Shown here piece by piece: positions 31,054 to 36,349 of a DNA stretch of 36,499 bases. The position numbers and the translations under genes were made by a program. Positions within the stretch are counted from its first letter, which is position 1. Every line of letters begins with the position of its first letter. The notes below the pieces were generated by a model. That model was not told where the DNA came from. It searched no databases and saw only the letters and a program-made list of their open reading frames with translations. The stretch is taken from assembly GCA_017556045.1 (NCBI GenBank), contig JAFZFF010000016.1:1-36499 (forward strand). The letters are read 5' to 3'. Source of the stretch: Bacteroidaceae bacterium (lineage in GTDB: Bacteria; Bacteroidota; Bacteroidia; Bacteroidales; Bacteroidaceae).

Positions 31054-33393
31054 ATGAAAGTATTTATTTCCCATAGCAGTATTGATAAGCCCTTTGCAGA
31101 AGAAATGATAGAGTCTATTGGTCGTGATTCTGTCATATTTGACAAATATTCATTTGATCCTTGTGAAAACATAAATAATAGTATTGTAAAATCGATTAAC
31201 GAATCAGAAGTTTTTGTTCTATTGGTATCCAATAGTTCACTAAATTCAACTTGGGTAAAAGAAGAAGTTAAACTTGCTTCTGAACTTATGATAAAACAAG
31301 ATCTAACGTTCTTACCCTATTGCATAGATCCAGAAATAAAGGCTAAAGATCCAAGACTTGATGAATGGGTCTGGAACAGACTTATTAAAACATACACACA
31401 CCCCAAATTAGCAGCTAGGGCAATTCAGCGAAAATTAAATAAGATTATTGCAGCTAAATTCCCTGATTTACATTCCGTAAATAATCTGTTTATTGGACGT
31501 AATATTGATATGTCCAATCTTGAGAAGAACCATTATCGAGAAGATTTGACGAAGTTGAAAGTGATGTTTATTTCTGGATTCCCGTTTGTCGGCAGAAAGA
31601 CCTTACACAAAAGATTTATCACACAATACATAAAAAAGAATCCCTACTATCAGCCCATAACGGTACGATTATCCAGTACCGATAGCATCGAGCAGCTGGT
31701 AATTCAGTTAAATGAATATGTGGGCTTAAAAGAAAGCAGTCAGATCTTTAACTATATATCTCAGGGCTCAGACTATGCGATTAGTTTATGTGAAAAATTA
31801 GTTGTTTCACTCATAGAGGCTCAAGAAAAAATTATCATAGAGGATGACGTTTGTATTGTTAAACCTGGAGGCTCGATAGTCGACTGGTTTCTTGACTTAT
31901 TGCATAAAATTCAGCTTCCTTCGGAAGTGGTATTTTACGTTTCAACGCGGTTCAGACCCAATCCGACTTTCATTGCTTCAAACCCCATGCTGATGGAATA
32001 TCCGCTATCAACCCTACATCGGGATGATATGTATAGTTTATTTAAGCATTGCATTGGACTTAACGGCCAAAAGCTTAATGAAGATGACATCGATATGTAT
32101 GTTGATTATTTTAGTGGATATCCTAAACAAGCGATTGATGCAGCAACCATAATAAAAACACAGACTCCAATAATTGCAAAGAAGAGAATCTCAATGCTAA
32201 AGGAAAGCTATGATGGGAACTATTATCCTATATGGGATGAGCTATCAGATAAAAGCAAGAATCTTGTGATAATGATGGCAAAATTTGATTTCATCAACAC
32301 CCAATTACTAGTAGGCATATACAATGGTGAGGATATATCATCTTTGCTTGAAGAGATTGAATCATTTTCGCTTTATGAGACATTCGGACAGGCTAATGAG
32401 TATCTATGTCTATGTCCTGCTTTTTCTGACTTTATTACACGATCTAAATTTAAGTTGTCTTCTGATTTTGAAAAAGTTTTTAGGAACGCAACAAAGAAGA
32501 TGTTGGCAGATATTAATTGTGAGTTGACAGACATTTCGTCAAATTTATTTGCCATTAAAGAAATGATTAGAACCAATCCTAAAAATATAAAAGAAAAGTT
32601 CTTAGTCCCATCTTTCGTATTAAAAGTAATCATAGAGGAATATCATCAGAATCATGATGAGATTGTCGTAGAAATAGCTCATCGAATTATTAATGACTAT
32701 AAAAAGGTGAACTATGACAGCTGTTTTGATGCTATCCATTATTGGTTATGTTGTTCCTTGTGTAGATTGCAAGATAGGGATAGATTTGAACAAGAAATAA
32801 GTTTCTTTAGTGATGACAAATTTGACTATAATTATCTATACGGATTTTACTTTAGGCATAACAGCAAAAAAAGTAGCTTACTTAAATCAAAACAATACTA
32901 TCAAATTGCAATATCACAGAAAGAAGAAAGAGATTACAAGACATTAACCCCCATTGCGAAAGTTGAGCACGAACTCGTTATTGTAATGATGAAACTCAAA
33001 GAATTTTCTGGAGCAATTTCTACAGCAAAAATTAATTATCAAAACAATCCACGTAACTCTTATCATATTAGAGCATATTACAACTGCCTAGTTCATACAT
33101 CAGGTTCTGATAAAGAAGAACTATTAACACTTCTGAAAGAGATGAAAACTCTCGGGGCACGAGCTTCTTCCCAATTTTTACCTGCAATGGAAGCTCAATA
33201 CGAATTCTATGTGAATGACAATTTTACTCGAGCAATAGATATGTTTAGACAGATTATGAGTCAAGATCTGGTAGAAGGCCGAATCTATACAATGGAGGCC
33301 TTTAGAGATATTTGCAATACGAGGGGAGCTAATATGATATATGAAAGTATTGTAAAAGAAAAGAATATAGATGACGTAGATGCAATCTATTAA
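31054..33393 (+). CDS. TIR-STAND-like NTPase-TPR protein, candidate anti-phage NLR-like effector
   Basis: 779 residues, cytoplasmic, AT-rich. An N-terminal TIR domain (1-135) starts MKVFISHSSIDKPFAEEM and holds NSTWVKEEV, where Glu71 is in the place of the NADase catalytic glutamate (Trp67 plus four). A STAND-like module follows: FIGRNIDMSNLE (146-157), like the FxGRE entry motif, a degenerate Walker A GFPFVGRKT (175-183, with an extra Arg before Lys), an acidic IIIEDD that could serve as Walker B and VVFYVSTRF as a sensor strand. The C-terminal third is helical, with TPR-like repeats around 570-720 that could sense a ligand. In known bacterial TIR-NLR proteins, phage sensing triggers oligomerisation and NAD depletion; that role here is inferred. 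It lies in an AT-rich island between two copies of one pseudogene. Confidence 0.8.
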   Translation: MKVFISHSSIDKPFAEEMIESIGRDSVIFDKYSFDPCENINNSIVKSINESEVFVLLVSNSSLNSTWVKEEVKLASELMIKQDLTFLPYCIDPEIKAKDPRLDEWVWNRLIKTYTHPKLAARAIQRKLNKIIAAKFPDLHSVNNLFIGRNIDMSNLEKNHYREDLTKLKVMFISGFPFVGRKTLHKRFITQYIKKNPYYQPITVRLSSTDSIEQLVIQLNEYVGLKESSQIFNYISQGSDYAISLCEKLVVSLIEAQEKIIIEDDVCIVKPGGSIVDWFLDLLHKIQLPSEVVFYVSTRFRPNPTFIASNPMLMEYPLSTLHRDDMYSLFKHCIGLNGQKLNEDDIDMYVDYFSGYPKQAIDAATIIKTQTPIIAKKRISMLKESYDGNYYPIWDELSDKSKNLVIMMAKFDFINTQLLVGIYNGEDISSLLEEIESFSLYETFGQANEYLCLCPAFSDFITRSKFKLSSDFEKVFRNATKKMLADINCELTDISSNLFAIKEMIRTNPKNIKEKFLVPSFVLKVIIEEYHQNHDEIVVEIAHRIINDYKKVNYDSCFDAIHYWLCCSLCRLQDRDRFEQEISFFSDDKFDYNYLYGFYFRHNSKKSSLLKSKQYYQIAISQKEERDYKTLTPIAKVEHELVIVMMKLKEFSGAISTAKINYQNNPRNSYHIRAYYNCLVHTSGSDKEELLTLLKEMKTLGARASSQFLPAMEAQYEFYVNDNFTRAIDMFRQIMSQDLVEGRIYTMEAFRDICNTRGANMIYESIVKEKNIDDVDAIY

Positions 33394-35168: not shown

Positions 35169-35849
35169 CTACCCACTATCTTGATAATCATTCAACGTTG
35201 ACTTTTCTTCTAACGTTAACGATGACGTTAACTCTTTTTCTAACGATGACGATAACGATGACGTTAACCAACCATCCGGCAGGCAGTTATCGTCAACGTT
35301 GACGTCATCGTTGACATTGATTACCTGACCCCTCAACATCCCTGGCACATAGGAGATATGCAGCCATCGGTAACCCTCCTCGGCGATGAGTTGGGTGAAG
35401 CGGATAGCGCCCTCGCGCTGCATCTGGATGATGAGATGAAACAATGCGAGATTGAAAGCCCCACCCCGACAGACCCCCTCAGTCCTTTGGACAGCTCCCC
35501 CTCTATGGGGAGCACCTTCGGGGTGTTCTCCTGAAATGTTTTGCAGCGATGCTTGCAAAGCCTCCCCATAGAGGGGGAGGTTGGAGGGGGTCTCCGTCCC
35601 CTTGATATCCGCCGCGCAGCCTACGATATGGTGGCTGTTAGCGACTCCACCTACAGCGGTGTTGAGTGCAGGGCAGCGGTAGCCAGAGGTGACGATGATG
35701 GGCGCGCCGTAATGGCGGCGTATGGGGTCGAGCAGCTGCTCTACGAGGATGGTGAGCATCTTACGTGCTGCACAGGGTGGGGTGTTGTCGATGGCCAAGC
35801 GCTCGGCGGTAGCGCTGGCGGACAACTCTTGAATAGTGAAATATTGCAT
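35169..35849 (-). CDS. M15A (Peptidase_M15_3-type) peptidoglycan peptidase with in-frame repeat insertion
   Basis: 226 residues, no signal peptide, like phage or mobile-element cell-wall peptidases. The zinc-site motif is visible: SGYRCPALNTAVGGVANSHHIVGCAADI (about 55-82, with SHH...AAD), and the second His in YRWLHISYVP. Between them, residues about 86-127 come from a 123-bp palindromic element (35471-35593) that keeps the frame but lies within the catalytic domain, so activity is doubtful. The tail after VPGMLRGQ (NVNDDVNVDDN...LTSSLSSSLEKELTSSLTLEEKSTLND) is low-complexity and encoded by short DNA repeats. It ends YQDSG, as does the remnant at 33533-33650. Upstream lie the smalltalk and HU-like genes, a known Bacteroidales trio. 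Confidence 0.75.
   Translation of the reverse strand: MQYFTIQELSASATAERLAIDNTPPCAARKMLTILVEQLLDPIRRHYGAPIIVTSGYRCPALNTAVGGVANSHHIVGCAADIKGTETPSNLPLYGEALQASLQNISGEHPEGAPHRGGAVQRTEGVCRGGAFNLALFHLIIQMQREGAIRFTQLIAEEGYRWLHISYVPGMLRGQVINVNDDVNVDDNCLPDGWLTSSLSSSLEKELTSSLTLEEKSTLNDYQDSG
35230..35325. repeat. Repeated AACGATGACGTTAAC-type units in the M15 3' end
   Basis: Units such as AACGATGACGTTAAC and their inverses (GTTGACGTCATCGTT) repeat on both sides of a short centre near 35272-35284. Similar bases (CTAACGATGACGTTAACG) occur at 29691-29710, beside the other HTH copy. Confidence 0.5.
35471..35593. mobile_element. 123-bp MITE/RPE-like palindromic element inside the M15 gene
   Basis: The outer ends AGACCCCCTC (35471-35480) and GAGGGGGTCT (35584-35593) are exact inverted repeats. 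Inner arms carry CTCCCCCTCTATGGGGAG and CTCCCCATAGAGGGGGAG. The 123 bp equal 41 codons, so the host frame is kept. The same sequence family occurs at 36181-36349. Confidence 0.75.
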
Positions 35850-35862
35850 GATATCAATTTAC

Positions 35863-35919
35863 AATTTGACGATTTACAATTTACGATTTATTTACAATTG
35901 AGCAATTTGACGATTTACA
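35863..35919. repeat. AT-rich direct repeats between M15 and smalltalk genes
   Basis: AATTTGACGATTTACA occurs at 35863-35878 and 35904-35919, with more ATTTACAATTTACGATTTA units between. Purpose unknown. Confidence 0.6.
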
Positions 35920-35930
35920 GGTCAGCGATG

Positions 35931-36036
35931 GTGTCATCCTGAACTAAAAGTGAAGCTTTAGGTCGCTGGCCCGAAGGGGACAAGCAAGGATCCTGTATAT
36001 AAGATGGGAGATTTTTCGCTGCGCTCAAAATGACAC
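35931..36036. repeat. 106-bp intergenic element with inverted ends
   Basis: The left end GTGTCATCCTGA (35931-35942) and the inverse of the right end, GTGTCATTTTGA, agree at 10 of 12 positions. The right part, GATTTTTCGCTGCGCTCAAAATGAC, resembles a dispersed bacterial intergenic repeat (TCATTCTGAGCGAAGCGAAGA) that I recall from several phyla. Confidence 0.5.
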
Positions 36037-36049
36037 TAATATGAATTAA

Positions 36050-36084
36050 GGGGTCAGCGGGGCGCGATGCGCCCTACTGACCCC
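36050..36084 (-). terminator. Hairpin after the smalltalk gene
   Basis: GGGGTCAG (36050-36057) pairs with CTGACCCC (36077-36084) and, after a 2x2 internal loop, GGGCGC with GCGCCC. It starts 4 bp after the stop; the downstream side is AT-rich without a long T run. Confidence 0.6.
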
Positions 36085-36088
36085 ATCG

Positions 36089-36250
36089 CTACCATCTTAC
36101 ACAAGCGCTCAGTCCTAATGCTCCTGCAAGAGCAGTGAGCACGGCTACGAGAGTCTTGAGCAGAAGGCTCCAATTGAAGGGGGACCCACCCCCAACCCCT
36201 CCCTCTATGGAGGGGAGAGCAAAGTCCATTGACTTTTTCTTGATATTCAT
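36089..36250 (-). CDS. Smalltalk-like small hydrophobic peptide carrying a repeat-derived insert
   Basis: 53 residues. The C-terminal half, LLLKTLVAVLTALAGALGLSAC, matches the hydrophobic, Cys-ended pattern of Bacteroidales 'smalltalk' peptides, usually about 30-35 residues. It begins MNIKKKSMDF, then has ALPSIEGGVGGGSPF, which is encoded by the palindromic CTCCATAGAGGGAG repeat and is not expected in the family. The ATG at 36250 lies between two arms of that repeat. It sits between an HU-like gene and the M15 peptidase gene on the same strand, the usual order for this module. Function is unknown. Confidence 0.6.
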   Translation of the reverse strand: MNIKKKSMDFALPSIEGGVGGGSPFNWSLLLKTLVAVLTALAGALGLSACVRW

Positions 36251-36349
36251 CATACTTCTACATTTTTTAGGGTTTATACTTTGGTTAATTTACCCACCCC
36301 GCCAGGTTCTCCCCATAGAGGGGGAGATACCCAAAGGGAGAGGGGGTCT
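36181..36349. mobile_element. Second copy of the CTCTATGGGGAG palindromic family (two arms)
   Basis: The left arm (about 36181-36218, CCCTCCCTCTATGGAGGG) lies in the smalltalk coding sequence. The right arm (36306-36349, TCCCCATAGAGGGGGAGA ending GAGGGGGTCT) abuts the HU stop codon. They may be the ends of one 169-bp element or two separate insertions. Confidence 0.55.

Follow-up and report, generated by a model that had tools for sequence, protein, structure and literature searches.

Near the right-hand end of the window, by which we mean the whole 36,499-nucleotide stretch of Bacteroidaceae DNA that was analysed, two palindromic elements, E1 and E2, lie within or across neighbouring open reading frames (Table 1), and the question raised by this locus is what such elements are and what inserts them. 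The initial annotation had described E1 as a 41-codon element with exact 10-bp inverted ends inside an M15 peptidase, and this was borne out by the inverted ends (AGACCCCCTC/GAGGGGGTCT) and by the uninterrupted host frame. The Pfam match of the host to Peptidase_M15_3 covers residues 3-88 (profile positions 2-80 of 108) and ends approximately where E1 begins, and the DNA from 35462 to 35602 folds with a z score of -4.9 relative to shuffled sequence. The same annotation had placed a related arm at about 36181-36218 in the smalltalk frame, and this arm is indeed present, but its inverted partner, and with it the element as a whole, had been overlooked; because the loop of E2, between both arms, contains the smalltalk start codon (36253), E2 constitutes an N-terminal extension of smalltalk rather than an internal insert. 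The arms share a layout consisting of a foot (AGACCC...), a side hairpin in some, and a palindrome such as CTCCCC-CTCTAT-GGGGAG, and the 18-nt core occurs three times in the window where 0.02 occurrences would be expected. A search of Rfam over the last 1.5 kb of the window returned six matches up to an E value of 1, every one of them below the gathering score. Separately, the 3' part of the M15 frame (35212-35321) contains ACGTTAACGATGACGTTAAC repeated in direct and inverted order, and a 779-aa open reading frame at 31054-33393 has an N-terminal, weakly ThsB-like TIR domain and is possibly defence-related.

Table 1. Positions of the two elements, their arms and the associated reading frames in the window.
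Feature	Position	Strand	Remarks
M15 peptidase ORF, 226 aa	35169..35849	-	host of E1; frame open through E1
Element E1, 123 bp (41 codons)	35471..35593		in frame within M15 peptidase ORF; exact 10-bp inverted ends
E1 left arm	35471..35513	+	side hairpin AGTCCTTTGGACA, core CTCCCCCTCTATGGGGAG
E1 right arm	35561..35593	-	variant without side hairpin
smalltalk/DUF6486 ORF, 54 aa	36089..36253	-	E2 forms its N-terminal part
Element E2, 166 bp	36183..36348		overlaps 5' end of smalltalk ORF; right end adjoins stop of next ORF (36350)
E2 left arm	36183..36215	+	translated in smalltalk frame within ALPSIEGGVGGGSP
E2 right arm	36308..36348	-	intergenic

Across the 2.54 Mb assembly from which the window derives, which is 78% complete, the core was found in 44 copies at up to two mismatches, 37 of them exact, compared with zero matches of a reversed control pattern over the same sequence. 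Grouped by hand, these copies fall into 31 sites, among which 21 are inverted pairs; two of the pairs are artefacts sharing a false right end (both in locus L127), and the remaining 19 comprise 18 elements of 94-200 bp and one of 514 bp that encloses a nuclease gene. The copies were not confined to intergenic sequence: when a frame of at least 60 codons was required on either side, six of the 31 sites were in frame, inside five genes, so that insertion into coding sequence, as proposed initially for this locus, proved to be recurrent. Besides E1 in the peptidase (contig C96), the in-frame sites are the junction of a single 798-aa frame matching HisD over residues 19-425 and HisC over 462-793 (C50), an element spanned by a BT4734-like_N match at 58-211 (C72), an element in a DUF6371 protein (C47), and two single arms in one BT4734-type protein (C23), of which a paralogue (L114) is continuous without arms. 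On a criterion like that used for Rickettsia palindromic elements, the predicted host frames that remain open with family matches are M15, BT4734-like_N, DUF6371 and hisDC. None of the remaining 25 sites is flanked on each side by 60 or more codons of one frame, which places them at gene ends, between genes, or where they break a frame. Elements also supply N-terminal tails to LeuC, a HAD hydrolase, M15 paralogues and smalltalk, and C-terminal tails to PhoH and an acyltransferase. Element lengths were mixed and mostly not multiples of three, which led us to abandon the idea of a built-in length divisible by three, and the host frame is instead probably kept by selection.

The 514-bp element provides a candidate for the enzyme. 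It contains the single match to PF04480 (DUF559) in the assembly, sitting exactly between two family arms, between leuA and leuC; 59 nt of E1 match its left end with one mismatch and a 1-nt gap, and the right 45 nt of E2 match its right end with two mismatches and a 1-nt gap. These matches, together with the survey that follows, make it probable that E1 and E2 belong, as non-autonomous copies, to a REPIN-like family of mobile elements that is linked to DUF559 and in which the nuclease would drive insertion. In the leu operon itself, leuC is preceded by the DUF559 element and followed by a second, gene-less one, which stands before a LeuD-like frame named by eye (C84, L126).

To survey DUF559 loci more widely, 151 genomes of the same bacterial family were searched, and of the 106 matches listed 84 were tested, the exclusions being 20 matches under 85 bits together with two good matches, G100:C167 and G019:C139. 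Flanking inverted repeats (score of at least 16) were present at 57/84 loci and at 2/162 shifted controls. A second set, comprising the 80 nearest of 586 loci and hence biased to close relatives, with seven loci repeated from the first, gave 62/80 among loci with named records and 0/152 among controls. Over the distinct loci of both sets combined, inverted repeats were found at 113/156 and at 0/298 shifted controls, with a median element length of 510 bp; eight rows in all were dropped from this count, from the site grouping and from the DUF559 tree. A direct-repeat control also scored at least 16 at 29 of the 156 distinct loci, which is ascribed to putative self-matching of the palindromes. 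All five recG loci scored below 16, and in a sample of the wider phylum the arms reached 16 in just 10 of the 29 loci, which were the best-scoring rather than a random choice. The left arm was C-rich in 94 of 113 elements overall and in 111 of 113 over the outer 14 nt, and a hairpin typical of some arms occurred in 33 of the 151 genomes, compared with 1/151 for the opposite polarity. Across 55 loci, the similarity of the arms tracked that of the DUF559 proteins (rho 0.31, 0/2000 permutations), as it did among divergent proteins from different genomes (rho 0.24, 2/2000 permutations). The protein consists of the nuclease domain only and has the Vsr/I-Bth0305I fold, with the acidic and histidine residues of the EDxHD/Vsr type conserved: E30, D58, E69, D71 and H75 were invariant across 54 sequences, selected by us from the 79 tested loci that remained after five of the 84 were found to contain internal stops.

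Comparison with relatives revealed empty, filled and differently filled sites. At the GCAAD motif of the peptidase, where E1 is inserted, 8 of 15 other M15 sequences were free of any insert (L138, L139, L140, L150-L154). The remaining seven carried three or four different palindromic families in that loop, namely the E1 family in G157, a GCCTCCCC family in G154 (twice) and G160, a GGCCCCCC family in G105 and a paralogue of G072, and one arm in G152. In the L154 paralogue of G152, a different loop carries an in-frame palindromic insert (GGAGCGAAAGGAGCTCCGCTTGCGACG...) that is unrelated, perhaps representing a further family that behaves alike. Across 18 of 19 genomes, the hisD-hisC junction was unfused in seven; five had a fused frame whose palindromic linkers were of three or more kinds, and six were fused with other linkers. 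In other species the linkers at L246, L248, L249 and L256 are non-palindromic spacers of TTTTCAATT- or TTGTCAATT-like units. Of 18 loci compared at leuA-leuC, six were unparsable; the gap was empty, at 18-19 bp, in seven relatives and 39-110 bp in three, and was filled in the genome of the window (G000) and in G157, where the DUF559 element is a different one, with a protein 58% identical and other arms. Some 11-14 bp of the leuC target were seemingly lost, and no target-site duplication was found in the flanks of the elements or in this comparison of empty and filled sites.

The nuclease-bearing elements themselves also occupy host frames. Of the 84 tested loci, 17 are contained in an open frame of at least 250 aa, 16 of them with another Pfam domain. 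Host matches were found on both sides of DUF559 in MiaB (L062), in a helicase (L089) and in the 849-aa RecG frame of Flavobacterium difficile (L228), and in three stretches in DegT (L105). Nine of the best 29 loci in the phylum sample, assigned to Bacteroidota through its named relatives, were inside long frames, comprising two each of LeuRS, MetH and HsdR, one HsdM and two methylase-type genes, and to five of these nine, which are restriction-modification genes, the nuclease domain might be native. No splicing domains were found in the scanned frames, Pfam giving DUF559 and host domains only, so that the insert should stay in the host protein. Translated in six frames, the arm DNA yields 51% Gly, Pro and Ser, compared with 23% in random segments, and has 4.75 of 6 frames open per arm, compared with 4.06 for random segments and 4.63 for shuffled arms; the value for shuffled arms indicates that base composition explains most of this openness.

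A mechanism that would connect these observations begins with a complete copy of approximately 0.5 kb, in which two inverted, C-rich, REP-like palindromic arms surround one small EDxHD/Vsr-type nuclease gene (DUF559, PF04480). The nuclease may cut DNA at or for the arms, and repair copying after the cut could then insert the element. We infer that the Gly/Pro/Ser-rich arm peptides ease insertion, in that their linker-like character would let insertions at gene junctions and in protein loops survive selection, and the survivors would add N- or C-terminal tails or occupy the linkers of fused genes such as hisD-hisC.

Whether DUF559 is the mover, as this mechanism presumes, was weighed against three other explanations. 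The arms could be repeats of the REP or MITE type moved by a RAYT or an IS transposase, with DUF559 a passenger between them, as might be supposed given that RAYTs are the enzymes of REPs and REPINs elsewhere and that Bacteroidetes have RAYTs of subclasses 2.4 and 2.6 (PMC6006769). Among the 151 genomes, 30 were arm-rich (at least three cores or at least five hairpins), and full-length DUF559 was present in 25 of these and in 15 of the 121 others (Fisher 1e-13), whereas the RAYT family Y1_Tnp was present in 13/30 and 41/121 respectively (p 0.22) and had zero matches in the 78% complete assembly of the window. When carriers of the window's core alone were considered, Y1_Tnp was somewhat commoner (9/15 carriers, 45/136 non-carriers, p 0.04), and five arm-rich genomes lacked full-length DUF559 (G017, G065, G083, G089 and G145, in assemblies 80-90% complete, three of them in one genus), both of which lend the passenger explanation a measure of support. 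One of the five, G017, has 137 hairpins, and the repeats at the one RAYT locus read in it differ from the arms. As an observation in its own right, four genomes of one genus (G017, G065, G083 and G044) have 3 to 137 arm-type hairpins each and no DUF559 match. At 20 RAYT loci of the same bacterial family (L311-L330), chosen by us among the strongest matches as a positive control of the repeat test and without a shifted control, 15 had long inverted repeats, which by eye are of other sequence, although some begin AGCCC. A RAYT is thus at best a weak candidate for the mover, and enclosure by covarying arms at 113 of 156 loci is hardly expected of a passenger, leaving this explanation unlikely. 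Still less probable, to the point of being improbable altogether, is a host function of the palindromes in regulation or mRNA stabilisation at gene ends, the in-frame cases being accidental; the 25 of 31 sites outside long frames and the strong folding of E1 would suit such a role, but sister species have different palindrome families at the same site, and the existence of empty sites further weakens it.

A more serious alternative, which we regard as possible but doubtful, is that the DUF559 genes are free-standing homing elements that copy only into the same junction (leuA-leuC, argG-argC, recG), the dispersed arms arising from repair or recombination at palindromes; it overlaps with the explanation preferred here, so that the likelihoods assigned to the two are not additive. 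The fold is that of the homing endonuclease I-Bth0305I, six sites each hold 5-14 DUF559 loci, and site labels are clustered on the DUF559 tree, with 10 changes compared with 32.4 when shuffled. Many loci, including the one before leuC, have common flanks and look to have been inherited in place, and the loyalty of DUF559 lineages to their junctions would be expected under homing or descent no less than under transposition, giving the site pattern a partly homing-like look. Against copying into one junction only, leuA-leuC and argG-argC each require two or more origins on starred branches, on a tree of few columns with many open forks, and the similarity between the loci L181 and L186 is confined to the 517 bp bounded by the arms (75%). 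A further pair, L077 and L188, is likewise similar solely from arm to arm (508 bp, 87%), though as neighbours on one contig they could be a local duplication. These comparisons are consistent with movement of the element as a unit. DUF559 is the inferred mover of the palindromic elements.

The small nuclease is thus linked to palindromes in coding sequence by position, co-occurrence and covariation, and the system includes natural cases in which fused genes contain a linker (hisDC, in one genus) or a nuclease domain lies inside LeuRS, MetH or RecG without an intein. Should DUF559 have the role proposed, the family would amount to a mobile element of a new class; the ends that the in-frame elements share with the nuclease element suggest mobile DNA able to write itself into working proteins. 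The chances appear evenly balanced that the elements constitute a new minimal class of transposable element in Bacteroidota, in which REP-like inverted arms and a single nuclease of approximately 120 aa of the Vsr/EDxHD type would move themselves and gene-less derivatives, with the linker-like arm peptides allowing in-frame settlement in working, even essential, proteins. Apart from RAYTs, we know of no candidate enzyme for palindromes of the REP-like or Rickettsia type that insert into coding sequence. In a literature search outside which most subscription journals fell, no paper naming DUF559 concerned such repeats judging by its title or the start of its abstract, and none combining DUF559 with such palindromic elements was found.

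Several known systems share parts of this behaviour. As in inteins, a nuclease gene lies in frame inside LeuRS, MetH and RecG, but the splicing domains of an intein are missing from the scanned DUF559 frames. EDxHD homing endonucleases such as I-Bth0305I, and Vsr, share the nuclease type, whereas here DUF559 was seen without an intron, an intein or an extra DNA-binding region, and is bounded by palindromic arms with gene-less relatives dispersed in the genome. The terminal inverted repeats without a gene, accompanied by a larger gene-bearing relative, recall MITEs, although the gene is DUF559 and no known transposase. The initial annotation had likened the elements to Rickettsia palindromic elements, and the likeness stands for behaviour, both being palindromic inserts in frame within protein genes, but does not extend to sequence: the arms begin AGACC, GGCC or GCCTC and lack the CGTC repeat end described in PMC3733652, and an enzyme-bearing copy, the linked nuclease being absent from that proposal, exists for the elements here. 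In-frame REP and Rickettsia-type inserts have been described previously, and the CGTC repeats apparently have no dedicated transposase, according to PMC3733652. The closest resemblance in organisation is to REPIN/RAYT systems, already known as RAYT REPtrons (PMC6006769), which have in common with the present family short palindromes in inverted pairs, numerous copies without a gene, an enzyme gene framed by those palindromes, and covariation of arm and enzyme. Even so, the arms begin AGACCC and are without the GTAG foot tetranucleotide of REPs and REPINs, and the enzyme is an EDxHD/Vsr-type nuclease where that of RAYTs is an HUH tyrosine transposase.
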